Assembly: GCA_023374045.1 (NCBI GenBank)
Contig: JAIOTZ010000255.1
Span: 1-64,000 of the forward strand
Length of the DNA stretch: 64,000 bases
Source: Limonium bicolor
Taxonomy: Eukaryota; Streptophyta; Magnoliopsida; Caryophyllales; Plumbaginaceae
Direction: 5' to 3'
The notes under the pieces were generated by a model that was not told the origin of the DNA, did not search any database, and worked only from the letters and a program-made list of their open reading frames with translations. Every line of letters begins with the position of its first letter. Positions within the stretch are counted from its first letter, which is position 1. A program made the translations under genes and the position numbers. Of the stretch, positions 494 through 64,000 are shown piece by piece.

Positions 494-515
494 GTTACTC
501 ACCCATGTGAGTAAC
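494..515 (-). other. Conserved U5 hairpin, F copy
   Basis: In the sense (minus) direction the stem is GTTACTCAC / GTGAGTAAC with loop ATGG, nine perfect pairs, about 100 nt from the LTR end. It is the counterpart of hairpins in families A, B, C and D; here two inner pairs differ from B but pairing is kept. Confidence 0.75.
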
Positions 516-16682: not shown

Positions 16683-16704
16683 GCATTCTTCTGAAAAATA
16701 AACT

Positions 16705-20541: not shown

Positions 20542-20544
20542 TTT

Positions 20545-22140
20545 TGCAAACAGAAATTGATCTACTAAAACTAAACAAATTAATCTAGAAAATAATAAAT
20601 CAATAGTCTGTCGGGTTGCAAAAATCCCGGTCACTACAGTATAGAAAGTTAAGCAACCAAGTATCGAACCGTGGGACTTGAATAAATAAGCCTAAGTCCT
20701 ATCCTAAATCCTAAGAAAACTGGAAATTCAGGGGGTTGTGAATTGTTTTTGAGACTGAATCGAATAAATGCAAATCAGAGTTGAAATAAGCAATCGGTAA
20801 AAATGAATGATGATTATGATAAGTGGAACTCCGGGTTCGGGTTGTTCTTTTCTGGTTGAATCTAGTAACTCCTACAATTTAATTATGAGAAACGGAAAGG
20901 CCAATTCTTTCTATCTCTTCAATGCTAAATCCTAGTTCATTGAAGAGCTCACCTATCAGAACGTGTCAACTCTAATCTAGCAGTTGGCAAAACACATATA
21001 GGTGGAATAAGCACAAAGAATTGTTAGCGTTTGTAGGAAAGATTACTATCCGACTAATCCTTCCCCAAATTCCCAGGTTAATTCGAACTCCCTATTAATC
21101 ACCTTGTCTGATCTTAATAGGTTTCGCAGAACAACTCTATAACTCGCGAAATTAATAGAGAAGAAAATTGATAATCATTAACCTGAAAACAATCCATTAC
21201 AGCCTCATAATCAAATTGCAGAATCTTTAACTACATTGAATCCATCTTGAACAAACCCTACCCCAGAGTTAAATCCCTACTAGCCAGACATTGCAAAGAA
21301 ACAGATAAATACAATCAACAAGAAATCATCTAAAGGAAGAAAAACCCTTCTGTTGAACGACTATCCAGATCGATGGATGCAGGTGTAAGGTTGAAGATGA
21401 TGGCCTCACTCCCTTCTGACGATGCTCCTCCAGAACGATGGTGATAAGCTTGATGAATGTGAATGAAGGTGAACTGATGCAATTGGCGTGGATGAATGGA
21501 GAGAACCTCGTTTATCAGCGTGAGAGTGTGTGTTGTAATGATCGATGATGAATGAATTCTCTCTCTCCTCTGATTAGGTCAGTTAAATAGACTTTTCCTC
21601 TCTTTTTCCCTTCAAAACGCCGAGTTTACTGAATTTTTCGTCCGTCCGAACATTGGTCCGACTTCAATGTTCGGACACAATGCTTTGAGCGCTCAATCCC
21701 AGAAGTCTCGACTTGTGTCCGAACTTGGATGTTCGGACACAAGTTCGGACATGCTCCGTACATCAGACCTCCGGCTTTTCTTAACCATGTCCGAACTTCG
21801 ATGTTCGGACTGAAGTTCGGACATTCCATCAGGCGCAGCACACGAACTCTCGACTTGCGTCCGAACTTGGAAGTTCGGACACAAGCTCGGACATTCCTTC
21901 AAAATCCTCTAAATTCATCGTTCGGACTCCAATTCGACCCCCGTTTGTTGCATTATCTCCCTTGTGAGTTAATCTACTGTTTCCTTGGCTTTTCTCTGCA
22001 TTTAATCATAGAAAAAGGTATCAAGCCTTACCAAACAACAAACCAAAGGAAAACGAAAGATAAGTGTGGAATATTATCGATGTACGTATAAAAATTAGGC
22101 ATTAAAGATCACTAAAACCATTCATATTTCCCACTCATCA
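20545..22140 (-). repeat. Athila 5' LTR
   Basis: This is 1,596 bp, TGCAAACAG ... CCACTCATCA on the plus strand, near-identical to 9,158-10,760 with scattered one- to four-base indels and fewer substitutions. It contains the hairpin array at 21,643-21,895. Confidence 0.95.
21643..21895. repeat. GTCCGAAC hairpin array in the Athila 5' LTR
   Basis: The same four units as 10,262-10,515, with units at about 21,655, 21,718, 21,788 and 21,859. Here the second unit keeps AAGTTCGGAC, where the other LTR has one changed base (AAGTTTGGAC). Confidence 0.9.
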
Positions 22141-24092
22141 ATCACGTCAATTCCATTCAGCCACGACTGCTCAGAAAATCTAAAAACTACTTAATATGTT
22201 ACTATTCCACTTGCACCACTTGTATTTTTAATCCCTATATTTACTTACTCCAGTAGCTACTTCCAAGTACATTAAACTACCGTTTCTATGCATCAGGAAT
22301 GCAAGTCGATCTCAACGGACAGAGAAACAAGCTCAGCATCATGGAATTATCTAGTTATAAGTACAAAATTTCATAATCGATTTAGTAATAAAAGAAAGGA
22401 GTCAAGCAATTTGAAGGGAGGGACTACGGTACTGCTAATATACTAAGATAGAAAGAACCTCCTACTGTACATATGCATATCGTTTGCCATCAGGTGCAAC
22501 AGAGAATACAAAACTTCTCATATATTTATATATTCTAATATTAATAATTTCCTACCTACCACTTATCAGATTAACACTTATTTTTTTCCTTTTCAATATC
22601 TAATCACCAAATCCACCGATTAGTACGCAACCCAATATCATTTTCCATTTGTTAATTCATTTTTGTTTGCACAACCAGAAGGACTTAATCCCAATATGCC
22701 TCAGATTACCCATAGCCTCAATTTTACTTTTCGATTAACTACACATATGTACTTAAACAAAAACGCATGGCAACAAAGAAGTCAGAAGGTTATAGTTAAG
22801 GATTATATAGAAAGTAAATTATTAACCACAGAATTTCATATTACTCACCACTCCAAGAATCCTAAAATCGATTGGGTTTTGGCTTCCTTTCAATTCCAGC
22901 CATGACCAGATTACCAAGCTTCTGACGTTTTTCAACAGACAAGAACGGGAAGGAGTTAGGGTTAAGTTTTTGGCGCAAGTCTGAAAACAAATTCTCAGAA
23001 ATATAGAACCTCACCTCAGTAATCTGGTTTGGACCCAAACAAGAAGCAGCGCCTCTGATTTCCTCCCAGGTTCCGGATTTAAACAAGAACATCCCTTACG
23101 AATTTGTTCGTCCAGATCCACACCAGAAAAGATGCTAGTTGTTTGTTTTTTTTTTTTTGGGTTTGTACGAGGGAACCACCTTTCGTTTTCCTTTTATCAA
23201 GGACGATTTAAAATCTCCAGAAACTTGAAATCCTAAAATCACTTCCTTCTTCTGGTTCTTCTATCTCCAACTCGCCACCACGCACCTTATAACCGGGTTC
23301 CATGGTTAATCCTCTCATCGTTTTACTTACTGGTAAAAGAGTAAAGAATTTAACAGGAGATTCAAGGAACTCGAGATTGAAATTACAGGGAAAGTTTCGG
23401 TTTGTTCAGAGAGAGAAGGAGATGGGGATAGAGAAGCGCAGAGCGTAGAGAATGAAAGAGTCAAATTTACAATTCCAAAAATTGAAAACGAAGAGAATGA
23501 ATAAGAGGCGGCGCCAATGTATTAGTTTGCTAGTTTAGGGTTTGAAAATATAGAAAGGAAATAAGAGCGTCCAATTAAATTTCTAACATGGCCATCGATT
23601 TGGGCTCCTTAGGCTCCAATTTTAACTAAATTTGGGCTCTTATAATTTTTGAATTGCAACCTAATAGGCTAATATGGTCCATTCAATTTTATAATTAGTT
23701 AATATGTTCATAAAGTCTCCTAAATTGAGTTAATAGGTTAGTAACCTCTCACACTTCAACATATTAATTTCATCTCATTATTTCATGTAATGATACATAT
23801 TTCCTGTTATAACTACTTAATCAAGTAATTTCTCTTTATAAATATACCTTTTAAATCTCAAGGTATATTATAGCATAATTCAATCAACACTCTTTGTGTA
23901 ATTATTTATTTTTCTCTTTTCCTCTACAATTATCTCAACCATATAATTATACAAATATAATCAATGTTTGATATTTCCTTAAATCATATAAAAGTTCAAA
24001 TAAATTTATTTCTCAATTTATTACTTATACACATACGTATATATATAGGTAATTAAATTATAATTACCTTTTAATTCATCAGGGATATTTTA
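22141..24092 (-). mobile_element. Solo LTR of family F, segment 3 of 3 (U3 end), with gene-like leader
   Basis: Starts with ATCAC (the Athila duplication) and ends GGGATATTTTA, matching the GGGGTATTTCA terminus of families A and B except for one base that turns CA into TA. ATAAT follows at 24,093. The part 22,862-23,545 looks like a gene leader on the minus strand: a telobox-like AAACCCTAAAC (23,533-23,543), a CT-rich stretch, an ATG with MEPGYKVRGGELEIEEPEEG (from 23,303) and a 76-codon frame (23,092-22,862, MFLFKSGTWEEIRGAASCLG ...). I do not recognise these peptides. They could be LTR leader sequence or a captured gene fragment. The rest is AT-rich with no gene. Confidence 0.55.
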
Positions 24093-25077: not shown

Positions 25078-25168
25078 TTCAGTGTAAACCCCTCCAACAA
25101 CCCACATAACAACAATCTGCAGCGAAATTCAACTCATCACATTACTTATTCCAATGGTGTTACACGCC

Positions 25169-25191
25169 GTTAACCCACCCACGTGGCTAAC
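25169..25191 (-). other. Conserved U5 hairpin, A left-LTR copy
   Basis: Same hairpin as 34,120-34,141 with one extra C on the GTTAACCC side. The single extra base is more likely a sequencing error or recent indel. Confidence 0.6.
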
Positions 25192-27014
25192 AAGGCTAAT
25201 ACAATACATACACATTTGTATCGGTCTGATGGACTAGATTCCCGAGCAACTACACACTACATTCCTCATTCCAATCAACATTTATTATATACATACATTC
25301 CCACTGTACGAGTGTTTACAATACTAGCCGATAACATTTCGGTCTTACTACGCCTATCATATTCATGCCATTTAAATGGCTACCCATTATAACATCGGCC
25401 CGTCCTACTCTCGAACGGCTTCCAGCACTTCGTACCTGAAATAGGAAAAGAAGAGAAAGGGGTGGCCCCAAGGGGCTCAGCACCTTGCTGGTATGGTAAT
25501 CCAGCAGCCCACATGCTACCGGGCCACGCACGACTAATTGTCGTCTTAGCATACAGTTGATTATTTTTAAATCATGCCACAAACCATTAACATATCACCA
25601 TAATATTCGCCTCAATGGGCTCAATCCATAACCAAAACATCCACACTTAACCAACCATCCAATTTCCTTAAACCCTAGAGGTCTCTCTAAAATGGAGCTA
25701 CTTCCTTAACGACGGCATGTACCCATTAATCGGGTTATCCTCAAATGCCTCTTATCACAACTGGGACGCATTTCCATTTCATACATTCCATATCCTACAA
25801 CATGACTCATTCCACTCATAACACATAACAAGCCTTCTTGCTTCGTGTACACATGACAACGTTCCATCATTTAAAGCATCCAATATATATATATATATCA
25901 AAGCATAACAAGGGACTTTGCATAGCATTTAAACATTACATACACCATAATCGGTTCTCAAAGGAACCCTCCACCTAGTTAGTATACCCGAGAGCCTAGG
26001 GATTTTTTGCCAATCCCATGTTAAGCTCGTTACCATCCTCTTACCGTCCGGTTATATCTAGAAACGGTTAACTATATACCCAAGGTGTGTCGGATATAGT
26101 AATCCCAAGCACACCCTAATAACATAACCATTAGTATGCCCCCGTGGCCCGACGTGAGTCAGTAATATAGCTTTGGTTAAGCTAAGGGGAAAGTTGGAAA
26201 CCCAATGGGAAGACAACCTTAACATACACAGAGGGTCGAACCTATAATGGCACGAACCCCCATCCTCACACGCGTGGCCGGAACAGACCGGGACTCCTCA
26301 CCCCCCGTTAGCACATATCCCTCATAATAAGTAGTTGGGATCCATTATGGAGCCCTACCACATCCATTCACCATTCGGCATCATAACCGAGTTAAGCACA
26401 CAAGGGAGGTTCACACACTTGCTCACAGCAACAATGTCCAATTAATTCACACATAGCCGTGGTTAGCACGTACCCAAGGTTTGGGCCGTCAACTCCGAAT
26501 ACCGATCACTCATGTGTTCCTAGACTTGGTTAGTTAAGGTTTAACACATATTTGAGGTTAAATGGTATCGGAGGCCAAATTCGCCACATAAATGAATTAC
26601 TATAAACTCATTACATGTTTTAATCTTACAAGGTGGCAAACATTCAAACATATTGGCATACAGCCGGTGTAATCCGTTAGGACACAGGTTGCAAGAAAAC
26701 CATACCTGTCACCGGAGTCCACTTTTCCACGTCCACTTATGTTCCTCGAGCAATTCTCGAACAACTGTTAACATCACATGTGTTTTCATTAACATCGGGG
26801 TTTGCTTGATTATTTAATGTCAATGCTTAATTTTTCCCCGTTAACTTGGTTACTTACTTAACATTTTAACTTGTTTTACTCTCACATTTTAATACAACTT
26901 TTAGCCCTCTTTATTTCCTTAAAAAACTCACCTAACATGTCCTAACATCCTTATAACATCATTACCTACCAATCCCATCCCACAATGATTTCATAACCTT
27001 AAACCATGTTTTTG

Positions 27015-31497: not shown

Positions 31498-33183
31498 TGA
31501 GATTGAGCTACTACCTAATGTGTAGTGCTCTCTCAGTTATTTCCCACACCTGGGGTATATCTCATACCGATATTTGGCAGCTAGTGCTACTGTGGTCACT
31601 TACTGTTGTATCTCCACTGGGGTTAACTCACAACTCTGCTTACTCACCATTTTATCATCTAACAACCCTCATACAACGGTCGCTTATTGCGCACCGTACC
31701 CTTACTCCTTGTATAACATCAGCTTACACAGTATTTACTGTCATATTGACTTCCACACATATACTTGTATTATTCACATTATTGTTCATCATTCATTTGG
31801 ATGACTACTGAATGCTCCTTGAGCATCGATCATTCAGGTCACAAGCCGGCATTATTCAGCTCGGTGTTTCACTTTACACGCACACACTACTAAGCTAATT
31901 GCTCTCTTTCAACAATAACATCGTCTATCCTTAATGTATTCCTTGAACTTGATTCACATTACTACCGCTCCCGCGGTGTCACAACATTGAGAGGTATTCC
32001 CACTCTTAATGCAGTGGTTCGTTCTCCACTCTATTCACTTATACCGCATGAACTTCTACAATCAACCGAATTTATATAACATATCTTGCTTATGGCTTAT
32101 AAGCCTTATTTGCCTTGAGCTGGGCTCCATGACAAGGTCGTTGTATTCCGTTTCCTTTCATGGGATGCCCCTTAGGCTTGTCAGTCCGTCTCCTGACCAC
32201 TTATGTCTAAATTTGGTGTTAGTTTCAACCCTTGTGTTTCTGTCATGCATTTCATTCAACAATTGTTGATGCGAACACCCTTCAAGGATTGCTCCAGGGT
32301 GTTGCTAAGGTATGCCATTACATTAGGCTTGCATCTATGGGTAAATTCAGTAAACTACACCTTCCTATGTTCGTAGCTGGGTACTCATTCCAGCTATCAT
32401 GTTTTATCCCTTAGGCTTATCATGACACATGTGGTGTCTTTCATAATAGTCCGTGCTCTTCGCACTCCTTGACTCTTTACATTTCCTTGAAATAAACTCA
32501 CTAGTTCCTTTAGTCCTTTTTAACTTAACTGGGTTCCTTAACTTCAACTAGTCCTGTAATCTCTAGCTTTCGTTTGATTTTACTGCTGACCGTAGACGGA
32601 GTCGACTACTTCCCGTGCTTCGGACTCTACTGGTATACATATATGGGGTATCATACTGATACATTACTACTTACCCGACTAACCTATAAGTAGGTCTGTC
32701 AGGCCCACATGCTCCTATCGGAGTGCGGTCGTCCCACAACACAGTTGGTACACTTGTAGTGTCCGTCACACGCCTAGGCGAAGTATTCTGTTGTCAACTC
32801 CCTTATATTGTCCCGTGACAATATTCATTCCTTACTTCCCGAACTTAATCGAGGGAAGGTTTATCCACTGTTGCATCCTTGTCAGTTGCTCTCGGTTTCA
32901 CTGGTTTGGTTTAAAGAAGGTTGGAAAGAAGTGTTGGTCTGAAAGAAAATCCGGTTTGAAAAGAAAAGGGTTTGTGAAAGATTAGGTTTGAAAGAAAAAT
33001 TTCCACGGTTTCACAACATCTTCTTACCTTAGCCAAGTCTAGCTTCTTGCTGACTGGTGTACTTCCAATTACAGAGGTTAGGCTAACAGGCCCTTCCACT
33101 GTTATGACGATCACATTTAACTCCATGGTACTTCCCCAAGTACCTGTAGTGGTTATGAATTTCCCGGACAGCCCGTTATAGCA

Positions 33184-33203
33184 GCACTTGCTATGGCAAG
33201 TGC
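33184..33203 (-). other. Conserved internal hairpin GCACTTGC/GCAAGTGC, family A
   Basis: Eight perfect pairs, loop TATG on the plus strand. Family B has the same stem with loop CGTG at 44,531-44,550, so only the loop has changed. Confidence 0.7.
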
Positions 33204-34000
33204 GCCATGCTAACTGGCTATCGGTTTGACACATACCGATTGTGGTATTGTTTTGACCCATATTGTCATCAGTGGCCTTGTTGGCCCTCACTGATTTTAC
33301 TGCCTTGATGGATACTCCTCTAGGTGACTTCTCACTGTTTCCACGTAATAATCAGTAGCTAGGGTGTTTCCCTTTCTGGGAGACCCCTTTGTCTTAGTAT
33401 TATATTCACCTTGTAGCCCGTTCCACGCATTGTCGTGGTTACTGAGACTTGTCTCTTGTTTGGGCACTACGTTGTAGTTCCTTGACGGTTGGTATACCGT
33501 TGGTGTTTTATTTATTAACTGTGGTCCCATAGACGTTCGTCTCGGGTTTTATTAATCCACTTCTTGCCGGTTGCACGGTTGGTGCATTGCAAGCTGGTCA
33601 TCCTCGACTGCTCGGCATGTCGACCCAGGTTGACTGGAAATTCTATTCTTCTATACACAAAATCCTTCATTTGTCGTATGGAATGCGGTTAACATTGTTT
33701 AGATGGAGACCGTCTCCGGGATTCCCAGTTTTCGGGATCTACCGTATGACAGATTCTCCGTACCCTAAAGTATGTAATAACAGCCAGATCGGGTATTCCC
33801 GAGTAAGAGTGGACTTTCATCTCTCTGGCGTTGTTTCCCAAGTTATATAACAGGGATTGTGGAGGGTGGGATGGATATTGTAGGTTTCCAGTATTCACTG
33901 GTAATTTCTAACTAGCGTATCTCTCACGCTATCACTCAACCCTTTACCCCAAGTACTCAAATCCTAACTCGGTATTCCCTGAGCTCGGTAATTCAGTCAT

Positions 34001-34026
34001 CAGAGCGACACTTCGCTCTGATACCA
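34001..34026 (-). promoter_or_regulatory. Family A primer binding site and overlapping hairpin
   Basis: The PBS TGGTATCAGAGC (minus strand, 34,015-34,026) lies five bases from the LTR. Its last six bases CAGAGC form the start of an eight-pair stem CAGAGCGA / TCGCTCTG with loop AGTG (34,001-34,020). Half the primer site would therefore be paired in the RNA. Confidence 0.9.
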
Positions 34027-34031: not shown

Positions 34032-35986
34032 TGTAACACCCCATCCAACAACACCACATAACAAATCTGCAGCGGAAATTCAACTCATCACATTACTTAT
34101 TCCAATGGTGTTACACGCCGTTAACCACCCACGTGGCTAACAAGGCTAATACAATACATACACATTTGTATCGGTCTGATGGACTAGATTCCCGAGCAAC
34201 TACACACTACATTCCTCATTCCAACTCAACATTTATTATATACATACATTCCCACTGTACCGAGTGTTTACAACTACTGCCGATAACAATTTCGGTCTTA
34301 CTACGCCTATCATATTCATGCCATTTAAATGGCTACCCATGTATAACATCTGCCCCGTCCTACTCTCGAACGGCTTCCAGCACTTCGTACCTGAAATAGG
34401 AAAAGAAGAGAAAGGGGTGGCCCCAAGGGGCTCAGCACCTTTGCTGGTATGGTAATCCCGCAGCCCACATGCTACCGGGCCACGCACGACTAATTGTCGT
34501 CTTAGCATACAGTTGATTATTTTTAAATCATGCACACAAACCATTAACATATCACACATAATATTTCGCCTCAATGGGCTCAATCCATAACCAAAACATC
34601 CACACTTAACCAACCATCCAATGATTCCTTAAACCCTAGAGTGGCTCTCCTCTAAAATGGAGCTACTTCCTTAACGAACGGCATGTACCCATTAATCGGG
34701 TTATCCTCAAATGCCTCTTATCACAACTGGGACTCATTTCCATGATCCATACATTCCATATCCTACAACATGACTCATTCCACTCATAACAAACATAACA
34801 AGCCTTTCTTGCTTCGATGTACACATGACAACGTTACACTCATTTAAAGCATCCAATATATATATATATATATCAAAGCATAACAAGGGAATTTGCATAG
34901 CATTATAACATTACATACACCATAAATCGGTTCTCAAAGGAACCTTCCACCATAGTTAGTATACCATGAGAGCCTAGGGATTTTTTTGCCAATCCCATGT
35001 TAAGCTCGTTACCATCCTCGTTACCGTCCGGTTATATAGAACGGTTAACTTATACCCAAGGTGTGTCGGATATAGTATCCCAAGCACACCCTAATAACAT
35101 AACCATTAGTATGCCCCCATGGCCCGACGTGAGTCAGTAATATAGCTTTGGTTAAGCTAAGGGGAAAGTTGGAAACCCAATGGGAAGACAACCTTAACAT
35201 ACACAGAGGGTCGAACCTATAATGGCACGAACCCCCATCCTCACACGCGTGGCCGGAACACCGGACTCCTCACCCCCCGTTAGCACATATACACTTAATA
35301 ATAAGTAGTTAGGGATCCATTATGGAGCCCTACCACATCCATTCACCATTCGGCATCATAACCGAGTTAAGCACACAAGGGAGGTTCACCACTTGCTCAC
35401 AGCAACAATGTCCAATTAATTCACACATAGCCGTGGTTAGCACGTACCAAGGTTTGGGCCGTCAACTCCGAATACCGATCACTCATGTGTTCCTAGACTT
35501 GGTTAGTTAAGGTTTAACACATATTTGAGGTTAAATGGTATCGGAGGCCAAATTCGCCACATAAATGAATTACTATAAACTCATTACATGTTTTAATCTT
35601 ACAAGGTGGCAAACATTCAATAAACATATTGGCATACAAGCCGGTGTAATCCGTTAGGACACAGGTTGCAAGAAAACCATACCTGTCACCGGAGTCCACT
35701 TTTCCACGTCCACTTATGTTCCTCGAGCAATTCTCGAACAACTGTTAACATCACATGTGTTTTCATTAACATCGGGGTTTGCTTGATTATTTAATGTCAA
35801 TGCTTAATTTTTCCCCGTTAACTTGGTTACTTAACTTAACATTTTTAACTTGTTTTACTCTCACATTTTAATACAACTTTTAGCCCTCTTTATTGTCCTT
35901 AAAACTCACCTAACATGTCCTTAACATCCTTATAACATCATTACCTACCAATCCCCATCACCACATATGATTTCATAACCTTAAAC
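34032..35986 (-). repeat. Family A 5' LTR, truncated by family B
   Basis: Begins TGTAACACCCCATCC and matches 25,083-26,999, then stops at TTAAAC where the B terminus TGTAACACC starts. The continuation homologous to 27,000-28,045 (including the hairpin array) is absent from the window. A TA microsatellite lies at about 34,858-34,872. Confidence 0.85.
34120..34141 (-). other. Conserved U5 hairpin, A right-LTR copy
   Basis: In sense: GTTAGCCAC, loop GTGG, GTGGTTAAC. All nine positions pair if one G-U pair is allowed; the opposite strand would have an A-C mismatch there. Confidence 0.8.
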
Positions 35987-36087
35987 TGTAACACCCCAAC
36001 TGCTAATCTCATCATTACCTCTTAAACTGTTACAATTCACCATTAAGCTCGCAGCGGAATTCAAATACAACAGAGTGAAACAACGCC

Positions 36088-36109
36088 GTTAGCCACCCTC
36101 GTGGCTAAC
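36088..36109 (-). other. Conserved U5 hairpin, B left-LTR copy
   Basis: In sense: GTTAGCCAC, loop GAGG, GTGGCTAAC, nine perfect pairs, 101 bp from the LTR end. Identical in the right LTR at 45,590-45,611. Confidence 0.85.
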
Positions 36110-36633
36110 CAGGCCTGACTCACATACAGTAACGGTCTGATGGACTGGAACAACCGAGTACTTCATACAAACACCATAATCATTTCACTTCTTACTATAC
36201 CGAGTCTACATTATACGGATGCCGATAACATACTCGGACTTACACCTTATTCAAACGCATAAGTAATTACAATCTAACTACCCATGCTCACAGCAGTCCC
36301 CGTCCTACTCTCTCGAACGGTGGCCAGCTTCGAGTACCTGCACACTAAAAACGTTCCCCCTAGGGGGTCAGCTTTCGCTGCGCATGAAATTCGCATATAC
36401 CGCGTGCTAACCGCGGTACGCCGACTACTTTGGGTCGGATATACATGGAGTTTATTTTAATCAAACAACATGCATCATGGCAATACAATATATATGTATA
36501 TCACACAAGGAATCTACATCCAATCACGGAACACGATTCCTAACTAACATAACAATGTTGTTAGTGGTAACTGGTTACTCTTAGGCATTGAGAGTTGTTC
36601 CTCACTATGCCTTGTTTACTTATTCAATACCTC

Positions 36634-37467
36634 ACCCGCTCTCTCGGGTTACGTATTCGTATACACACCCATTCTCTTGGGCTACTCATTCTTACACTTA
36701 CCCATTCTCTCGGGTTACACATTCATATACTCACCCCTTTCTCTCGGGTTTTATCTACAAGCTCTTGTAGATTCTCGAGACACTACAGGTCTCCTACATC
36801 ACGCTTGTTACTCTTATACATACTTGAGCCAAACTCATGGCTCTCTAGCATAGTCTTACTTCCCCGGTTTCGACCCTACTCTGGGTCTAGCATGGTGGGA
36901 AGGTTCAACTAGCTCACGGAACTCTCTCTTAGTTCCTAACTCTTTTTACATAGGTCCGACTACTCTCGGACTACTCACATTCCCAATACTCCTCTCTCGG
37001 AGTTATAATTATATCATGTATATTAGTCTAGAAGCATCACTCTCGATGTTTCTAATGACTTAGGGAACATTACTCAAGTTTGGTTAATCTTAGGTTTTAA
37101 GGGTTACCTTTACAGTACATATACTCGTACTTTCGGTTATATTCTTATACCGGGTAAACCCTCTTATAGGAGGTCGACCATGTCTCAAGGGAGTTACTAA
37201 TCCCCTAGGTCTCATTACCTTCCTTATAAGTTCACATTATTGGATTAACTTCAATCCTCTCGATGGAGGTTCATTTATCTCTCCACTCATATTTATTTCG
37301 TGGATCGTTTCAGTAAGGTTCTCTAACCGTTATCGGGTATATACTCAACCCGTACATCTCCTCGCATTTTAGGGAGTTCATATGTTTGTGTTATCGTTAT
37401 ACTTTAATCGATAGCTTGTGTGTGTTTGCATAATACCATTGGTTATGTGACTACCCGTTCAACGGGT
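36634..37467 (-). repeat. Chain of short hairpins with CTCTC loops, family B left LTR
   Basis: At least a dozen stem-loops of 4-7 pairs at intervals of roughly 30-60 bp. Examples (plus strand): ACCCG/CGGGT at 36,634; three 33-bp tandem units ACCC...GGGT to 36,750; CTACAAG/CTTGTAG; GAGCCA/TGGCTC; GGAACT/AGTTCC; GTCCGA/TCGGAC; CTCC/GGAG; ACCCG/CGGGT at 37,453. Many loops read CTCTCT, ACTCTC or close. Repeated at 46,134-46,973 in the other LTR. Confidence 0.75.
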
Positions 37468-38034
37468 TTCTAGTCAATCAGTACTCACTAAGAGTCGGTC
37501 TATGCACTAAGTTAGACCACACCGGCATATAAGTATGTTAGCTCATTCAACATACAACAATGCATGCTAATCAAACAAGGGATTATTTTCATGCTTTAAT
37601 CTTGATTAAGCCGGCACACAAACACACAAATCAGAGTAACTCGGTTAGCATACGGGGCATGAGAAAATCATACCTTTCACCGAAGAGCACTCTAATGTGC
37701 CATCACATGTTCCTTGGAAACTTTGTACAACTGGTAACATCATAACTATCTTTATTAATATCGGGGTAACATAATTATTAACGACTAATGCGCCCATGAT
37801 TAACCCCGTTCGATAGTTTATAACTTACATTTGTATTACAACTTCTTACCACTCAATCACCATTATAACTTACTTAATTTATCCTTAACAACCTTATTAT
37901 CTTAACTTTAAGCATTAAGGTTTATACTTAATCTTAACTTAATTACTTAAGTTCTTAGGGTCCCAATCATCACTACCCTATTAATGGCACACCTTAATAC
38001 CAATTAACATTCTTAGAAATTAAAATTTCTCTTC

Positions 38035-38336
38035 TTTTTTTTTTTTTTTTTTTTTTTTTTAAGGGTCGACCGACCCACCGACCGACCCAACCCCTGGGTC
38101 GGTCCGTCCCAGTAACTTTCTGGTTCAGAAGACAACCTTAGACCGACCCACGACCGACCCATCCTTATGGGTCGGTCCATTACCGAAACTTTTCCTTCGT
38201 TAAATTTTGCCCGACCGACCCAAAGCTGAGCCGACCGACCCAAACTCTCTGGGTCGGTCCATTGCCGAAGCTTTCTGGCTGGCTTAACGTGGTCCGACCG
38301 ACCCAGAACTGGGTCGGACCCTGGGTCGGTCCACTA
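38035..38336. repeat. T26 tract and GACCGACC hairpin array, family B left LTR
   Basis: After 26 T come four hairpins at 38,081-38,103, 38,153-38,176, 38,234-38,258 and 38,297-38,317, mostly ACCGACCCA / TGGGTCGGT. Centres are 73, 81 and 61 bp apart. About a dozen ACCGAC or GTCGGT words are present by eye. Confidence 0.9.
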
Positions 38337-39773
38337 CAGATTTCTCTCTTAATTTATTCTTTCAACTCCAATTCAATCCTTAATCTTTCCATAAACTTTC
38401 CACAAGTTTTCCACATATTTAATCACCTTAAAAACATGCTCTAAATCCCTTCAAATCATGGGTTAAACCCTTACTCAATTTCTTACTCAAAATCACAAAC
38501 TTTTGCATTCTTGTTTCAACAACTTGCACACTTGTGCATTTTTCTAGCTTCTCCTCAACTCTTTGCATTATGTTCTCTTTCATTTTGACCATTCCTTATC
38601 TTCCAACATAATGCACATCTCATTCCAAGTTCCAAGACCCACTCTTAAAGCTTAAAATCTTCCTTGGTTTCTAAAAACTCCTAAGGCACTTACACAACCT
38701 CTTTTGCTACAGATTTTGCACATCTCACCACAATCATCCTCTCATATTCTTGGGTGATCATTTACCCAATTCAAACTCCAACACCCTAGCTAACCCTAGG
38801 TTATTCTCCACACAAAACATCACTTAAACCACTTAGGTTTCTACACAAATTTTGCCATAACTTGGCTACTTCTCTAACATTTCCCAAAACTCATGCCACC
38901 ATTTAAATCATCCTAAAACTAGCCAAACCACAAGGGTCCTATCAGCACAAACAAGTTCACCAATACTCATCAATTCTCCAAATACAATACCATGCATAAT
39001 TTATGAAATGCATAACACTTAATCAAACACTAAATTCACAATGTTTTCTCACTTGCATTATCTTGTACAAGCACATTGCTACCTCAACTCAAGTGGGGTT
39101 CATTTAATCATTAACCCTTCCCAAACTCTAATACATGTAGAGTATACTTAAGGGTTGGTTTCTTACCTTGGATTCTCTCAAGTTTCCTTTTAAATACTCT
39201 TCTCTTCTTCTCCTCTTTTCTTCACCCAAAATCGGTCAAGGCAAATCATTTGCCCATTTCTCTAGCCACATTCAAATTGCCAAATAAGCACCAAGGAGCT
39301 CCCTTAGGCTCAACAAATAAACTAAAATTCACAAGGATGCTTAAAGCACCAAATTAGGTTTTACCTTTGGAATTTCTTGAATGGTTTTCAACTCTTGAAT
39401 CTTAAGAGGGACTCCCACCACCATTAAAGCTTGGAGAATATCTCAAACAAGGAAGAAAAGCTAGTCATTACCAAAAGCCAAAATCGGCCAAGGTGAGAAA
39501 ATGGAGAAACATGACTTTTTCATGGATATTTTTACCTTGCTAGAAAGGGGAAGCTTCAAGCTTCAAGATTATGTGTTTTTCTCCTCAAATGGGCAACAAC
39601 CATGAAAATGAAACTCAACCTTTTTGAGTTTTGAAAAGAGGGAAGTGTAGAGTTTGATGAGAGGAGTTCAAATATACAATTATTTTTCAATTCGGAGCAA
39701 GGATGAAGCTTGGGCAAGGAGAAGAAGGTGGAGAAGCCATGTGTGGAGCTTCCATGTCGCACAGCACACAGAG

Positions 39774-43400: not shown

Positions 43401-45456
43401 CTTGATATTTGTTGATGCCCTCTGGCAATCTAGGGTATCCCGTGCTACGTGGGATCCCTTCGGGTTTTACCCGAGTGTTTGACTTAACACTTGTGTTCTC
43501 AACACGATGTTTCGTTCAACTACTGTTGACTCCGGCACCCTTCTCGGATTGCTCCTGGGTGTTACTGAGTAATGCCATTACATCTGGCTTGTACTCATGG
43601 TTATGTTCAGTTGTGACTTCGCCTTGCGGCTATGTCCTTGACTATCCCGTTTAGGGTTGTAATGTCTCCCATTATTGGGTAGATCCTTGGTACTTCCTAA
43701 TACCTTCTAGGTTAGGTCCTTATTCTCTTCAGTGAGGTATAAAGTGGGAATTCTATCCCGTTTATCGTACATTAATAAGTTCATTTAGGCATTCGCCGTA
43801 TTATTTACACTGGTATTCACCCAGTTATTAGGTATTTCCTGAGACATTTCCAATGTCTGTTTAATACTCTGTGCCTCGCTTCTTAACGCATCTTAATCCA
43901 CACTTACTGGATTCTTGACTTTACTTGGTAAGCTTCTTGTTTCTTCTTCGATCATTCGAGGTGTCCAACTGTCTTGGTTTGGATTGGCTCTTTCGTCCGT
44001 AGTATGGAGTGGGCTACTTCCCGTGTACCGTACTCTACTTGTATACATACATGGAGTATCTTATTGATACGTTACCACTTACCCGACTAACTCATAACTG
44101 GTCTGTCAGGCCCGCAAGCTCCTTTGGAGTGCGGTTGTTCCATGTCTCGTTTGTGTACACTTGTAGTGTCGGTCACGCCTAAGTGAAGTATTCTGTTGCC
44201 AACTCCTCTTATATGGTCCTATAATGACTTACCGTGATCCTCTGGTTTGGTTTAAAAATTCGGGGGTTTTTGGAAAATTCATGTTTGAAAGAAAATTCGG
44301 GTTTTAAAAATAAGCTCTTCATGGCATTTCAATGCCGGCTGATTCTTATCCAGTCCAGCTTCTTGCTGGCCGGTATGTTCTTTATACAGTGACTAGGCTG
44401 TTAGGCCTTTTCAAGGTTTCATTTCAGAATTCTTAAGGTTCGAGTTGCTATATTGGCTTCATTCGCCATTCTGGTACTTTGCTAAGTACTGATAGCTTGT
44501 CAAAGCTCTTCTTATTGGTCCCCTATTACTGCACTTGCCGTGGCAAGTGCGCGGTACTGGCGGTTTTTGGGTTAACTCATACCGGTCACGGTATTGTTCA
44601 CTTTATTTTGGTAGCCTCGTTGGCTCTTCCTTGATCCCCTAGTTGGATAACTGCTCCTTGGAGCTGCTTCTCATTCCTCTTGACATGACTGTCATTCATT
44701 TAGGTGCTCCTCCACTCTCGGAGTTCCTTAATTACTTTAATTCTATGCTTTACCTCGTTGCTCGTTCCCACGTCTTTACTGTGGTTACCGAGGTTTAGCT
44801 TATTTAGGTACTACTTTTGTAGTCCTATTCGGGTATATCCCGTAGTTATGCTCGTAGCTCTCTAAGCTGTGCCCGTTAGGTATTGCAACCTCTTCGGGTG
44901 TGGCAGGGTGGGTGTACCAACTCTCACTATGTTCTTAATTGATTGGTATACCCTTAGGGGTATTACATCATGGCGGTCCGTAGACGTGTCCCGGTTCTCG
45001 TTATTTCTCATGTGTCCGCCTTGTTGCACGGTTGGTGCATGCTTCTCACTGCTACTCGGCCTATTGGGTTCTCGCGACTGCTAAGCATGTCGCCCCAAGT
45101 TGCCACAGATTTCGATCTCCTTGGATTAGGATGTCTCGATCTCTCGCCATTATGTGCGGTCATTGTCATTCCAGCGGGATCCGTCTCCGGGCTTTCCGGT
45201 TCTCGGGACTTACCGCATGACAGGTTCTAGTTCAGAATGAAATATTAAATAACTGCCAGATTGGGTTTCCCCGTCTCTCTGGCGTTCTTTCCCAAGCTTT
45301 TAATGCGGGGGTTGTGGAGGGCGGGTCTGGTATTGTAGGTATCCAGATCACACTGGAAGTTCCTAACTAGCGCATCTCTCACGCTACCACTCAACCCATA
45401 GCCCTAAGTCACTATATCCTAACTCGGTATTCCCTAAGCTCGGTATTTCCAGTCAT
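40500..45456 (-). other. Family B internal region, non-coding
   Basis: No retroelement protein motif in any frame. It is collinear with the family A internal region, including the internal PPT copy, the CCGAC/GTCGG hairpin (42,311-42,325) and the GCACTTGC/GCAAGTGC hairpin (44,531-44,550). Short frames seen here are not shared with A. Confidence 0.75.
41931..41965 (-). promoter_or_regulatory. Internal polypurine-tract copy plus hairpin, family B
   Basis: In sense: stem GGTTACGC / GCGTAACC (41,948-41,965), then CCCCTTTTAAGGGGGGTAG. It lies 1,446 bp inside the 3' LTR. Compared with A, a G-C pair replaces an A-T pair in the stem. Confidence 0.7.
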
Positions 45457-45482
45457 CAGAGCGATACTTCGCTCTGATACCA
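45457..45482 (-). promoter_or_regulatory. Family B primer binding site and overlapping hairpin
   Basis: PBS TGGTATCAGAGC (minus strand, 45,471-45,482), spacer AAAA to the LTR. Stem CAGAGCGA / TCGCTCTG with loop AGTA covers 45,457-45,476 and includes the last six PBS bases. Confidence 0.9.
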
Positions 45483-45486: not shown

Positions 45487-48400
45487 TGTAACACCCCAAC
45501 TGCTAATCTCATCATTAACTCTTAGACTGTTACAATTTACCATTAAGCTCGCAGCGGAATTCAAATACAACAGAGGGTGATACAACGCCGTTAGCCACCC
45601 TCGTGGCTAACCAGGCCTGACTCACAACAGTAACGGTCTGATGGACTGGAACAACCGAGTACTTCATACAAACACCATAGTCATTTCACTTCTTTACTAA
45701 CCGAGTCTACAATATACGGTTGCCGATAACATACTCGGACTTACACCTCATTCAAATGCATAAGTAACTACAATCTAACTACCCATGCTCACAGCAGTCC
45801 CCGTCCTACTCTCTCTCGAACGGTGGCCAGCTTCAAGTACCTGCACACTAAAAACGTTCCCCCTAGGGGGTCAGCTTTCGCTGCGCATGAAATTCGCATA
45901 TACCGCGTGCTAACCGCGGTACGCCGACTACTTGGGTCGGATATACATGGAGTTCATTTTAAAAACAACATGCATCATGGCAATACAATATATATGTATA
46001 ACACACAAGGAATCTACATCCAATCACGGAACACGATTCCTAACTAACATAACGATGTTGTTAGTGGTAACTGGTTACCCTTAGGCATTGAGGGTTATTC
46101 CTCACTATGCCTTGTTTACTTATTTAATACCTCACCCGTTCTCTCGGGTTACTTATTCGTTTACACACCCATTCTCTTGGGCTACTCATTCTTATACTTA
46201 CCCATTCTCTCGGGTTACTCATACATATACTCACCCCTTTCTCTCGGGTTATTTATACTCAAGCTCTCGTAGATTCTCGAGACACTACAGGTCTCCTACG
46301 TCACGCTTGTTACTCTTATTACATACTTGAGCCAAAACTCATGGCTCTCTAGCATAGTCTTACTTCCCCGGTTTCGACCCTACTCTGGGTCTAGCATGGT
46401 GGGAAGGTTCAACTAGCTCACGGAACTCTCTCTTAGTTCCTAACTCTTTTTACATAGGTCCGACTACTCTCGGACTACTCACATTCCCATATACTCCTCT
46501 CTCGGAGTTATAATTATATCATGTATATTAGTCTAGAAGCATCACTCTCGATGTTTCTAATGACTTAGGGAACATTACTCAAGTTTGGTTAATCTTAGGT
46601 TTTAAGAGTTACCTTTACAGTACATATACTCGTACTTTCGGTTATATTCTTATACCGGGTAAACCCTCTTATAGGAGGTCGACCATGTCTCAAGGGAGTT
46701 ACTAATCCCCTAGGTCTCATTTACCTTCCTTATAAGTTCACATTATTGGATTAACTTCAATCCTCTCGATGGAGGTTCATTTATCTCTCCACTCATATTT
46801 ATTTCGTGGATCGTTTCAGTAAGGTTCTCTAACCGTTATCGGGTATATACTCAACCCGTACATCTCCTCGCATTTTAGGGAGTTCATATGTTTGTGTTAT
46901 CGTTATACTTTAATCGATAGCTTGTGTGTGTTTGCATAATACCATTGGTTATGTGACTACCCGTTCAACGGGTTTCTAGTCAATCAGTACTCACTAAGAG
47001 TCGGTCTATGCACTAAGTTAGACCACACCGGCATATAAGTATGTTAGCTCATTCAACATACAACAATGCATGCATAATCAAACAAGGGATTATTTTCATG
47101 CTTTAATCTTGATTAAGCCGGCACACAAACACACAAATCAGAGTAACTCGGTTAGCATACGGGGCATGAGAAAATCATACCTTTCACCGAAGATGCACTC
47201 TAATGTGCCATCACATGTTCCTTGGAAATCTTTGTACAACTGGTAACATCATAACTATCTTTATTAATATCGGGGTAACATAATTATTTAACGACTAATG
47301 CGCCCATGATTAACCCCGTTCGATAGTTTTATAACTTACATTTGTATTACAACTTCTTACCACTCAATCACCATTATAACTTACTTAATTTATCCTTAAC
47401 AACCTTATAATCTTAACTTTAAGCATTAAGGTTTATACTTAATCTTAACTTAATTACTTAAGTTCTTAGGGTCCCAATCATCACTACCCTATTAATGGCA
47501 CACCTTAATACCAATTAACATTCTTAGAAATTAAAATTTCTTTTTTTTTTGTTAAGGGTCGACCGACCCACCGACCGACCCAACCCCTGGGTCGGTCCGT
47601 CCCAGTAACTTTCTGGTTCAGAAAACAACCTTAGACCGACCCACGACCGACCCATCCTTATGGGTCGGTCCATTACCGAAACTTTTCTTCGTAAATTTTA
47701 CTATGACCCATCCCCGACCGACCCAAGCTAAGCCGACCGACCCAAAACTCTGGGTCGGTCCATTGCCGAAGCTTTCTGGCTGGCTTAACGTGGTCCGACC
47801 GACCAGAACTGGGTCGGACCCTGGGTCGGTCCACTACAGATTTTTCTCTTAATTTGTTCTTACAACTCCAAACCTTTCCTCATATATCCTAATATGTTCT
47901 AACCTCATTTGGGCACTTCAAACCCATCTTAATGACATCCAAAAACTCCTTAATTCTCCCCTTTTGCACTAATGCACACTTGTGCATTTTCTAACCTTTC
48001 TTAACACTTGCATTATTACTCTCTCTTCATTTAACCATTCCAAAACTTCCAAGATAATGCACACCTCATACCAAGTTCCAAGACTCACTCTTAAAACCTT
48101 AAATCTTCTTTATTTTTCTACAATTCTTCAAGCATTTAACAACCTCTTTTGCTACAGATTTTTGCATAAATCTCACCTCCAACATCCTCTCATATACTTG
48201 GGTGATCATTTACCCAATTCAAACTCCAACAACACCTAGCTAACCCTAGGTTATTCCCCACACAAAACATCACTTAAACCACTTAGGTTTCTACACAAAT
48301 TTTGCCATAACTTGGCTATTTTTCTAACATTTCCCAAAGTTCATATCATCACATTATTCAACCTAAAACTAACCAAACCCATCATGGGTTCTACCAGCAC

Positions 48401-49930
48401 ATACAAGTTCACCAATACACATCAATTCTCCAATACAATACAATGCATAATTCATAAAATGCATAACACTTAATCAAACACTAAATTCATAATGTTTTCT
48501 CACTTGCATTACTTGTACAAGCACATTGCTACCACAATTCAAGTGGGGTTCATTTATTCATTAACCCTTCCCAAAATACCAAAAGCATTAAGTTAGGCTC
48601 CAAGGTAAATTTGTTTACCTTAACTTCACAAGCCTTTACTCTTTTCACTCCTCTTCTTTCTCTTCTCTTTTCTCTTGCTTGAGAATCGGCCAAAGGCCAA
48701 GAAATTGCCCATCTCCCATTCAATACACAAGGCAAGAAATGAGTTCAAGTAGAAACACTTAAGCTCATCAATTAGAAATGCTTAAAGCTCTAAAATGTGT
48801 GATTACCTTAAAACCCTAAGATGGGGTTTTGGTCAAGAATCAAAGAGTAACTCCCTCCAAGCTCTTAGGGATTGAAACAATGCTCATAAAAGAGAGTAAA
48901 CAAGGCTCCATTAGAGACCAAAATCGGCCAAGGCATAAAATGGGAGAAAACAAGACTTTTTCATGGATATTTTACCTTGATAGAAAGAGGAAGCTTCAAG
49001 CTACCTAATGGTGTGCTTTTCTCCTCAAATGGGCAACACCCACGAAAATGAAACTCACCATTTTCGAGTTTTGAAAAGAGAGGATGGTAGAGGGTGATGA
49101 GAGGATCACAAATATGTACTTATTTTTGAGTTCGGAGCAAGGATGAAGCTTGGGCATGGAGGAGAAGGTGGAGAAGCCATGCTTGGGGCTTCCATGTCGC
49201 ACAGCACACAGAGAGGAAGGGAGAAAATCGTGATGATGGGGAAAGAGAGAAAGAAGAAAAGAGAATGGGAGGAAGAGAGAGAGAGAGAGAGGAAATTGTT
49301 AAATGCTTCTTGCTTTTACTTTCCTCTCTCCTCCTCTTCTTTCTTTCTTTATTTATTTACTAGCCTAGAGTGTGTGTGAGTGGGTGACTCACTAAATAAA
49401 ACCGGCCCCACTAAATTAGTAAGCTGGAGCGTTTTTCGTTTTCTTACAGAAAACGCTCGTTATTTTACCCGGTTTGGCACTATTCACTAACCGGGCCCGT
49501 TTTTCGGATTTTTCTCGTTTCTTTATTTTTAATGGCTATTAAGCTTCCATTAATACTTAATTATAGTTATATAATCAACTATAATTTTTACGGGTCCATT
49601 TGACCACTTAAAGTCACGTTTTCGGGTTTTCTCGAAAAACGTGCTTTAAACTCCGTTAGCGTTTTAATTCATTATTTGGATCCGTTTCCTTCGGGAATCA
49701 TTCCCGTATACTTATTAGGCCTAACTAAGCCTTAGGAATCCATCTCGGACCCTCTCGAGATCATATATCTCTTATACTCATTTAACGCGTATTTTAGCGT
49801 TTTTCGCTTTTCAAGCGTTTTCTCTTTTCTTTTGGTTTTATTCTTTTACCAATACTCTTTAGGCACCATTAGGCCTTTTATAATCATATTAGAGTAATTT
49901 GATCGCCATTTTTAGATCCGGGGTATTTCA
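45487..49930 (-). repeat. Family B right LTR (5' LTR)
   Basis: Matches the left LTR closely for its first 2.35 kb and last 0.55 kb, with a diverged middle (about 47,845-49,390). Contains the hairpin at 45,590-45,611, CCCCCTAGGGGG at 45,859-45,870, the hairpin chain 46,134-46,973, a shorter T run (T10) and the GACCGACC array 47,556-47,836. Confidence 0.9.
47556..47836. repeat. GACCGACC hairpin array, family B right LTR
   Basis: Four hairpins equivalent to those at 38,064-38,336 with small indels; one inner unit has lost part of its stem (near 47,705). Confidence 0.85.
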
Positions 49931-51357
49931 ACATATGCCTTTTACTAAGCCCTTGAGAGCATTTTTCTAAGTCATTTACCATTGGCTCCTTAAATCATTT
50001 TCATAAGCAATATAAGCTCATTTCTCCTAAGACTTTAAACTACATTAGGTTAGCATATTTACCTCTTTTCCTCACAAACTTCTTTCTTGTTTCCTTGTTT
50101 AAAAATCGGTAAGGGTGTTTGGTTTCTTGTCAACTTCTAAACAATATAAAAATAATGAAATGAGTATACAAGCTTTATGCTTCATCTCATTGTAAACCCT
50201 AAATACATAGATTGCCTTAGAATATTTAGATGATTGTTTTACCTTGGATATGAAAGAGAGTTTGGATATGTAGCAATAGAGGACTGCACCTAGTCCATGA
50301 AAGGTTGAAATGAAGCTAAAACAAGCAAGGTAAGGACACCATAAGGGTGATTTTCGGACAACACAAAAACATGAAGGAAACATCATTTTTCTTTGAGTTT
50401 CCTTACCTAGAAGCAAAGGAGAACAACAATATATGAAAAGATGAGCTCAAGCTCCTCCCTTGGAGATTCCTCTTGCACCGAAATAGAGCTCTTGGAATTT
50501 TGAGAAGATAGGAATGAAGAGCTTGATGAGACTAAGAGAATGGTGGTCTTTGTTTTTGATTTGGCAAAGTGAGATAGGAATTACAAGAGGTTGAAGATGA
50601 TATATGGTGGTGGTACTATTGCAAAACTGTGAATGGAGAGCACGAAGGAGATAGAAGTGAAGTTGGAATCGTGGGAAATGAAGAGAAATGAGAGAGTGAA
50701 GATAAGTATTTGCTTTTAGAAGATATTTGTAGTTAATAAAGTAAATAGTACTTTATTCATCATTAGTTTATTTATTTGTTAAATGCTAGCAAGAGTGGTG
50801 ACTCACACCATAAAAACCGGCCCCCTTTAGTTACTTAGGGGTGTTTTGGTCTTAGTTGACCAATTAAATTACTTATGATGATATATGTTATAAACTAGCT
50901 TATTTAGTTACTATTCATAAAAACAAGGCACATAGATGTGAAATTTTTGATTTCCCATTGATATAGACTTCCAAATGTGATACTAGGTAGTACACATATT
51001 AATTAAAGAGTAATGATGGACATTTAGCCATTCAAAACTCATTTACAAGACAATTTTTCAAAAACGTGCTTTAAGACTCCTTAAAGCACATTTTGTGTTT
51101 TAACTTGTTTTCAAGATTGGTTTTCTTTGGTATTTGGTTTAGTATGTTCATTAACACCTAAATGAACTCTTGATAAGCTTATTAGGTCTTAACCAAGTTT
51201 TCCAAGCTTAGAGCACATTTTAGCCTTTATTGACCTTAAGGCACTTGTTTGTGTTTTCTATGGTTTAAATTGTTTACTAATGTTTCTATGACTCTTTTTA
51301 GTCTTAATATACCTTATTTTAGTGTTTAAACAATATACCTAGGTTTGGGTTATATCA
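49931..51357 (-). mobile_element. LTR fragment G, related to family A (U3 part)
   Basis: Aligns with 28,045-29,610 of LTR A (for example CTCACAAACTTCTT, ACCGGCCCCC, AGTAATGATGGACATTTAGCC, CAAAAACGTGCTTTAA) but at clearly lower identity than the A LTRs share with each other. Ends GGGTTATATCA at 51,357. It is cut on the left by family B and on the right abuts the internal region of C. It is probably a separate, older element inserted in C. No gene seen. Confidence 0.7.
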
Positions 51358-57435: not shown

Positions 57436-57457
57436 GTTAGTCACGTGGGTGGCTAAC
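57436..57457 (+). other. Conserved U5 hairpin, family C
   Basis: GTTAGTCAC, loop GTGG, GTGGCTAAC, 105 bp from the LTR end. One pair is U-G in the sense RNA; the other strand would have a C-A mismatch. Confidence 0.8.
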
Positions 57458-62919: not shown

Positions 62920-62941
62920 GTCAACCACGTGGGTGGTTGGC
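62920..62941 (+). other. Conserved U5 hairpin, family D
   Basis: GTCAACCAC, loop GTGG, GTGGTTGGC, 101 bp from the LTR end. Two pairs differ from B by matched changes and one is a U-G pair. Confidence 0.8.
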
Positions 62942-63047: not shown

Positions 63048-63073
63048 TGGTATCAGAGCATAGTTACGCTTTG
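63048..63073 (+). promoter_or_regulatory. Family D primer binding site and overlapping hairpin
   Basis: TGGTATCAGAGC (63,048-63,059), five bases from the LTR. CAGAGCAT / ACGCTTTG with loop AGTT (63,054-63,073) gives seven of eight pairs, one of them G-U. Confidence 0.85.
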
Positions 63074-64000
63074 ATGACTGGAACAGAGGAGTACCGAGTA
63101 TAGGAAAACTTGAATTTGGGAAACAGGGTTAAGGGTTAGTATGTGAGGCTCGTTAGTTAGGGTTCTTCCCCAGTAATTACTGGATACCTAACAGACACCT
63201 AAACCCAACCTCCACGTCCCTAGGGTCCATTTTAATTCATAGGAATAACGCCGGAGAGGTAGAAAGCCTCCTCACGTAGCCCTTCATTTCCCTTTGCCCA
63301 CACCAACCGAATTGGTAAGCTTCCTCTTGCTCTATCTTTTCTTCTTCCTTTGCTAAGTTAAGCCCTTAGAGCTTCAAGCTCCATTAATGGTGTATCAAGT
63401 TCTAACACCATTTTAATGTAATTTCCTAGTTAATTCTACTAAGTCTTGAAGCAAGAAATCATCCTAGCAACTTCTACCATTTTCGCCAAGCATAAGTGTT
63501 CCAAGGAGGTTCCTAAATTCAACAACAACACAACGAACAACAAGATCCAGTTAAGGTATATTTTGATGTTGAAAATCCTAGTAAATTACCTTAAGCAATT
63601 TTCGAAATTTAAGACCTTCTAAGTCCATATTCTCTTCATTATTTCATGAAGGAAACTTGGATCTACAATCATCCCAAGGTGTACCAAAAATACCTTGTTT
63701 AATTCCTAAGGTAAACTGTTGTAAAATTACTTCAAATATTATTTATAAATCCTTGTTAAAAGTCTGACAAATGGATCTCCTACATATGTACATGGAGGCC
63801 GAAATACCTTCATCAAAATAGTTTTTGGAGAGCTTGGAATTCAAGGAGAAATCAAGTACAAGAATTGTCTTGATTTTAAGGAGTAAGTTTATACAATTAA
63901 GGTTTATTAAGTCTAAGTTTGATTTAAGCTTCAAACTTTGGTATAAATATTTTGTATAACCTCTAAATAAATTAAGACCGAAAACTATGGGTTATATTGT
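63074..64000 (+). other. Start of the family D internal region
   Basis: Up to about 63,290 it is recognisably like A and B next to their PBS (TGATGACTGGAA, TACCGAGTATAGG, TACTGGATACCTAACAG, AACGCCGGAGAG). After that similarity fades; CT-rich text at 63,310-63,350 looks like an LTR leader and another insert may begin there. No gene seen. The element continues beyond the window. Confidence 0.55.

Follow-up and report, generated by a model that had tools for sequence, protein, structure and literature searches.

A hairpin with a 9-bp stem recurs near the U5 end of the long terminal repeats (LTRs) of five Limonium retrotransposon families, and its stem has repeatedly changed on both sides with the pairing kept. 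The stem-loop structure itself is well supported. Judging from the sequence, we favour, with some reserve, the view that it is a conserved U5 stem-loop of the genomic RNA, probably used for packaging or for starting reverse transcription.

The hairpin and its setting in the window

The window, that is the whole 64,000-nt (64-kb) stretch of DNA analysed, carries the following hairpin copies:

494..515, minus strand: U5 hairpin, family F, GTTACTCAC-ATGG-GTGAGTAAC (sequence and covariance model)
25169..25191, minus strand: U5 hairpin of the 3' LTR in family A; a single base is inserted in the 3' arm (covariance model)
34120..34141, minus strand: U5 hairpin of the 5' LTR in family A; position 5 is G.U
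36088..36109, minus strand: U5 hairpin of the 3' LTR in family B; perfect 9-bp stem with a GAGG loop
36083..36114, minus strand: family B 3' LTR hairpin plus its lower stem GCC(TG)...GGC
45590..45611, minus strand: U5 hairpin of the 5' LTR in family B
57436..57457, plus strand: U5 hairpin of family C; position 6 is U.G
62920..62941, plus strand: U5 hairpin, family D, U.G at position 2 and C-G at position 3

Six 22-mer hairpins had been described in a sequence-only reading of the window, and their positions, stems, loops and pair types are all confirmed by the window sequence, including the non-Watson-Crick pairs at position 5 of A, position 6 of C and position 2 of D, all three of which are G.U in the sense strand. 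A damaged seventh copy, GTTAGCCACGTGGGTGGGTTAAC in the other A LTR (25169-25191, minus strand), was absent from that list. The claim that five families share the hairpin stands, but the two B copies are not independent since both sit in LTRs of one family. A covariance model of the 32-nt region recovers seven window copies, each with an E-value of at most 1e-7 (five of the seven had been in the model's own alignment), and the next-best match in the window is the reverse strand of F (E = 0.46). Each of the four window LTRs with known borders has one hairpin. The search of the 64-kb window against Rfam gave 0 matches at gathering score, and a ribozyme or other known RNA was rejected on this ground; a tRNA gene was also considered, and none was found.

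In most alignment rows the 9-bp stem is extended below by GCC(NN)...GGC. The loop is mostly RWGG, which in 43 sampled loci was imposed by the selection motif. Among the 100 genome matches listed, the first two loop bases, free in the pattern used, are always GT, AT, GA or AA; exceptions encountered are GTTG in L097 and one TTGG.

The borders of the surrounding LTRs and the primer binding sites (PBS) are as follows:

25083..27004, minus strand: 3' LTR of element A, with 96% identity to 34032-35986 (self-comparison)
34032..35986, minus strand: 5' LTR of element A (self-comparison)
34015..34026, minus strand: PBS TGGTATCAGAGC (tRNA-Met type), element A
34000..34021, minus strand: second hairpin, including the PBS, TCAGAGCGA-AGTG-TCGCTCTGA, element A
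35987..38371, minus strand: 3' LTR of element B, with 96% identity to 45487-47871 (self-comparison)
45487..47871, minus strand: 5' LTR of element B (self-comparison)
45471..45482, minus strand: PBS, element B
45456..45477, minus strand: PBS hairpin, element B
63048..63059, plus strand: PBS, element D
63053..63074, plus strand: PBS hairpin, element D, imperfect, one G.U

The LTRs of A, B and D end with GGGGTGTTACA; behind this come AAAA(G) and a 12-base PBS of the tRNA-Met type, TGGTATCAGAGC. All three thus show an LTR ending in CA with a tRNA-Met PBS directly downstream, as is characteristic of chromoviruses. We confirm that the hairpin lies some 100 nt ahead of a PBS of the tRNA-Met type; the distance to the LTR end, given earlier as 88-105 nt, is close to that in sampled relatives, where it is 88-111 nt (n = 43). 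Measured from the loop, the distance to the LTR end is 101-124 nt in the 43 sampled loci.

The PBS is itself part of the 5' arm of a second, covarying hairpin of the form TCAGAGCGN-AGTN-N'CGCTCTGA, the 3' arm of which repeats the PBS complement, as a tRNA end would. The N-N' pair lies outside the part fixed by the PBS and is A-U in 26, U-A in 18, G-C in 10 and U.G in 3 of the 57 fitting loci (out of 70); the other 13 do not fit the PBS-hairpin form.

For 12 representatives, RNAalifold predicts a helix between TGTAACACC, just after the U5 hairpin, and the LTR end GGTGTTACA. We regard this helix as possible at most: its LTR-end arm was fixed by the search pattern, and of 43 loci only 7 have a complementarity above that of shuffled sequences (p<0.05). 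A strict TATAWA was found 290-380 nt upstream of the hairpin in one of the 12 representatives (L016), and other TATA-like stretches were seen there by eye.

Several features of these LTRs are recorded as side observations. The A and B LTRs abut exactly at 35986/35987 (BLAST borders), and the B LTR at 45487-47871 has B-type internal sequence on both sides (45487-49932), an arrangement like that of a tandem array. Two consecutive small hairpins (AGCA..TGCT, and GCCCC..GGGGC or CCCCC..GGGGG) precede the U5 hairpin by about 200-340 nt, for example in L045, L048, L049, L050 and L054; in many families they are followed by a pyrimidine-rich stretch and CAG/GTAC, resembling a 3' splice site.

Abundance, covariation and strand bias

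The pattern GTTANNCACNNGGGTGNNTAAC has 71,425 exact matches (35,937 + 35,488) in the 2,924,550,425-base genome, and its reversed control has none (0 + 0). Two stem pairs are free in this pattern, and both are paired in all 100 matches listed: position 5 is G-C in 70, G.U in 22, A-U in 6 and C-G in 2, and position 6 is C-G in 59, U-A in 32 and U.G in 9. Because the copies are related by descent, match counts alone were not considered sufficient and further tests were made.

For a sample blind to the hairpin, LTR ends were collected by their terminus and PBS (GGGTGTTACA N3-7 TGGTATCAGAGC), a pattern present at 63,915 places genome-wide. The first 100 of these, all on one contig, made up the sample, and 70 were fetched. 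The hairpin is present at 78 of the 99 places examined. In 43 of the 70 fetched loci, RWGGGNG occurs at the right distance, with one candidate each; this motif sets the register without using the stem, but with it the loop is given, and so is the 3' base at positions 7 and 9. The covariance model adds six more at E<0.05 (L052, L076, L097, L098, L105, L107), of which L052 has E = 0.049 and the other five are below 1e-6. At 29 of the 30 unfetched places, the hairpin pattern is matched exactly, on the same strand and 60-160 nt away.

No recognisable hairpin was found in 21 of the 70 fetched LTR ends, which share terminus and PBS by selection (L046/L060/L061/L081/L103; L050/L053/L055/L084/L085/L088-L090/L095/L104; L078, L079, L080, L086, L087, L106). 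The hairpin is thus not required by every such element. In the first five of these loci, GCCTTG and GGCGTGTAATACCC enclose another inverted repeat, which is A/T-rich and reads CGTTATTA..TAATACG or CGTTATT..TAATACG in the same GCCTT...GGC setting; after it comes TGTAATACCC, complementary to the LTR end.

LTR end and PBS were also seen on short contigs in six bacterial assemblies (L004-L009), which seemingly represent one other LTR element family and are presumably contamination; the covariance model finds no hairpin in these six contigs. In viral contigs, neither the LTR end + PBS pattern nor the PBS hairpin pattern has a match (0 each), and three matches to the U5 hairpin pattern were judged unrelated by eye, their surroundings resembling coding sequence twice and a terminator once.

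Sampled families differ in their stems (for example GCTAGCCGT/GCGGTTAGC, GTTGCTCGC/GCGAGTAAT, ACCACTCGT/GCGAGTGGT and GTCAACCAC/GTGGTTGAC) and keep the pairing: over 36 distinct rows, 96.3% of stem cells are paired, or 92.6% with the GCC/GGC lower stem included, and both-side changes occur at six of the nine stem pairs (positions 1, 2, 3, 5, 6, 8; 52 cells). The covariation score is 0.576, compared to 0.326 +/- 0.021 for shuffles (0 of 500 reach the observed score) and at most 0.177 for slid strands. Two of the five covariation measures do not beat shuffling (both-side-changed pairs, 106 of 500; further pair types, 407 of 500). Alignment A1 has 37 rows; 11 of the 43 loci were dropped as identical 32-mers, wA3 and wB5 were dropped by hand, the six loci found by the covariance model only (L052, L076, L097, L098, L105, L107) are not included, and L062 and L099 were kept despite deletions.

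The families share an LTR-end ancestor and their copy numbers are not independent, as would also be the case for an inverted repeat that is merely inherited, common by descent and without function. We consider a null model which keeps the tree and each column's substitutions. It was applied to 52 rows unselected on the outer stem, namely 47 of the 49 hairpin-bearing sampled loci (L052, L076, L097 and L105 added; L098 and L107 left out for indels) and five window copies. The observed value is 96.6%, against 77.9 +/- 4.8% with a maximum of 89.7% in 1,000 trials; with a tree from the flanks only, the null gives 74.9 +/- 4.9% with a maximum of 89.1%. When positions 7 and 9 are excluded, the observed value is 96.2% and the null maxima are 88.7 and 91.5%. 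An earlier tree test gave 97.8% against a maximum of 93.5% in 1,000, and all eight same-branch double changes went from pair to pair; its rows were partly stem-selected (65 distinct of 78 rows, including L010-L039, which were selected on positions 1-4 and 7-9).

A G-test/APC scan, made with a purpose-written script in the style of R-scape (not R-scape itself) and run on those 65 distinct rows, has 0 pairs at E<0.05 among all 23,220 column pairs (position 8, E 0.37; position 5, E 4.6), which is what a functionless repeat could also yield. Restricted to the 12 stated pairs, positions 8, 5 and 3 pass at 0.0002, 0.0024 and 0.049, and the remaining nine stay above 0.05. The scan thus gives moderate support. 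The covariation claimed in the sequence-only reading is upheld by the compensatory changes and by the tree null being exceeded, but not by the all-pairs scan. We give almost no credence to a functionless repeat, as the stem has repeatedly changed on both sides with pairing kept and as, in each of four settings, all 1,000 trials of the tree-keeping null stayed below the observed value.

A further alternative is a dyad acting at the DNA level, such as a palindromic transcription-factor site in the LTR. The inverted repeat is perfect in B, and a CACGTG core is present in the commonest loop type, GTGG (87 of the 100 genome matches listed). A palindromic site mutates alike on both strands, so that about equal numbers of G.U and A.C are expected without selection on one strand. 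The numbers found are far from equal. Among 36 distinct 22-mers there are 37 G.U against 6 A.C cells, or 25 against 5 when positions 7 and 9 are excluded, which cannot show A.C in most rows as their 3' base is fixed by row selection (an earlier row set gave 34:4). The bias at position 9 (C to U in a CpG, with a loop starting with G) may be partly mutation-driven. On the tree, 20 events lead from Watson-Crick pairs to G.U and 5 to A.C (15 and 4 excluding positions 7 and 9). Genome-wide, the copies have 16,768 G.U against 108 A.C at position 5 and 6,095 against 195 at position 6, together 22,863 against 303, counts which are inflated by descent. Stem changes compensate, moreover, and CACGTG is missing in many families. 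A DNA-level dyad is thus very unlikely.

Folding shows the same asymmetry. The sense stem has a pairing probability of at least 0.95 in 11 of 12 representatives and of 0.70 in the other; for the reverse strand it is 0.0 in six of the 12. The six representatives with wobble pairs have 0.70-0.99 in sense and 0.0 on the reverse strand. Equal wobble numbers in sense and antisense, which the sequence-only reading had named as evidence against its view, were not seen; the sense G.U bias is borne out, and together with the compensatory changes it backs the claim of a structure acting in the transcript.

The strand bias would fit any sense single strand, and the LTR end is copied in both strands, so that the structure might instead form in sense-strand DNA during reverse transcription. 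A preference for G.T pairs is, however, more typical of RNA than of DNA, and we regard a DNA structure of this kind as highly improbable.

Elements carrying the hairpin

A Ty3-type gag follows the PBS in all seven hairpin-bearing relatives scanned, which had been chosen for a long frame. Retrotrans_gag is above its cut-off in each (L047, L048, L049, L051, L054, L058, L065), and Ty3_capsid is found below its cut-off in L047, L054 and L058. As 13 of 30 loci have no frame of at least 110 aa within 1.5 kb after the PBS, the linkage to gag is seen in part only. RT and RNase H also occur downstream of L049. In L116, 3.5-6 kb downstream of the L062 PBS, RVT_1, RNase H, rve, SH3_Tf2-1 and Chromo are found in separate broken frames. 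The scores from this one relative are above cut-off for SH3_Tf2-1, 22.2 bits for rve (cut-off 32.6) and 24.0 bits for Chromo (E 3.8e-5; cut-off 25.1).

In the window itself, ten frames of 78-146 aa were compared with Pfam, taken from A, from B and the B-like sequence beyond it, and from the region upstream of the C LTR; none has a match. Three of the ten were again without match at a looser limit, as was the frame at 156-422 near F in the Pfam search, and no homologues of the frame at 32914-33351 were found. The window copies show no recognised domain in the tested frames, although their LTR pairs are 96% identical.

The hairpin is common to gag-coding elements and to copies without recognised coding domains, which are non-autonomous or decayed. 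We infer that the carriers are a very abundant, chromovirus-type Ty3/Gypsy group, which may be Tekay-like, together with relatives that have no recognisable coding sequence.

A candidate leader signal and known systems

The sense RNA would fold into the 9-bp stem, usually with the GCC/GGC lower stem and a two-base bulge, and present the RWGG loop. This hairpin would lie about 90-110 nt before the LTR end, with the PBS about 5 nt past that end and inside the second covarying hairpin; from this position relative to the PBS, a location in the leader is predicted. Selection preserves pairing and loop over stem sequence, as expected for a protein-bound RNA. Most probably the hairpin serves as a cis signal in the leader of the genomic RNA that would be recognised by Gag (nucleocapsid) or by the reverse-transcription complex, either for packaging or for setting up the tRNA-PBS complex, and gag-less copies would retain it so as to be served in trans. 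Conserved pairing and loop with drifting stem, the transcript strand, the fixed distance to the PBS, and carriers with and without gag all fit such a leader signal.

The same covariation and strand bias would result from an RNA element for 3'-end formation, stability, export or translation. The LTR sits at both ends of the element, and a TGT(A)..CACC stretch lies behind the hairpin in most sampled loci; both speak for this alternative. The hairpin position is, however, tied to the U5 end and the PBS (88-111 nt) and not to a visible AATAAA, which was found up to 400 nt upstream of the hairpin in only two of 12 representatives. A role in translation is less likely because the hairpin is kept in copies without recognised coding domains. 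We consider this alternative unlikely, though by no means negligible.

For the U5 leader signal, priming, packaging or dimerisation had been proposed as functions in the sequence-only reading. The first two are retained here as candidates. Dimerisation by loop-loop contact through CACGTG is rejected as a shared mechanism because the palindrome is absent in families with GAGG, ATGG and AAGG loops. A more specific proposal, which we advance tentatively, is that the RWGG hairpin is a packaging or priming handle common to gag-coding and gag-less chromovirus families, and that through this single RNA signal large numbers of gag-less copies could be mobilised in trans. Compensatory retention in both kinds of families would then reflect the need for recognition by one element's Gag or RT. 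If so, an RNA motif of 22-32 nt would make the recognition in trans of elements lacking coding sequence easier to understand, would serve as a search model for non-coding elements, and would make RNA packaging of plant retrotransposons addressable by a break-and-restore test on a reporter RNA.

It would also be the first such signal defined by covariation in plant Ty3/Gypsy elements within the literature searched. In the parts of the open-licence PMC literature covered, we found no account of a leader hairpin with covariation in a plant Ty3/Gypsy retrotransposon, and the terms "packaging signal", "dimerization" and "encapsidation" do not occur in a 2025 review on the host factors of LTR elements in plants.

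As in retroviruses, a conserved RNA stem-loop lies near the PBS. The retroviral U5-PBS and packaging stem-loops, for example those of mouse mammary tumour virus, in which a purine loop and the PBS are packaging-signal elements (PMC8096270), resemble the Limonium hairpin in having a purine/G-rich loop near the PBS. In contrast to these, the Limonium hairpin is inside the LTR, about 100 nt before the PBS, belongs to Ty3/Gypsy elements and is a candidate for Gag binding and packaging.

The leader of yeast Ty3, analysed by SHAPE (PMC11381356), shares with it the superfamily, tRNA-Met priming and a PBS prone to intramolecular pairing. Yeast Ty3 also has a small hairpin with a suspected role in dimerisation, and its proposed dimer site is a six-base palindrome at nt 391-396 (PMC11381356), whereas the Limonium hairpin is in U5 and its loop is non-palindromic in many families.

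In a survey of LTRs by hidden Markov models (HMMs), the conservation that remains in long R regions is connected with stem-loops, and the U5-IR loop of retroviruses is mentioned; the attempt to obtain HMMs failed for plant Metaviridae, and in the excerpts of the survey no such hairpin was found (PMC3601003). Beet chromoviruses use a tRNA-Met PBS (PMC3605345). A parallel to the trans-packaging idea is provided by the copia element BARE2, which has conserved dimerisation and packaging signals and is parasitic on BARE1 (PMC3735527).

The palindromic motifs in the LTRs of Sireviruses (PMC2829016) likewise represent conserved dyad symmetry in plant LTRs. Those motifs belong to Ty1/copia elements, where each LTR holds many of them, and a CGG-CCG core is present in nearly all (PMC2829016). 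The Limonium hairpin, in contrast, is single near the U5 end and shows strand-biased covariation; its identity with the repeated Sirevirus motif is ruled out by the single copy per LTR and the lack of a CGG-CCG core.

Two other regions of the window are recorded as side observations. Ty1/copia gag and integrase frames are found at 5438-7740 (minus strand). At 9158-22141, an LTR pair with 96.6% identity surrounds RT/RNase H and Transposase_32 frames; this apparent Ty3/Gypsy element has several palindromes with a CGGAC core, which resemble the repeated motifs of Sireviruses.
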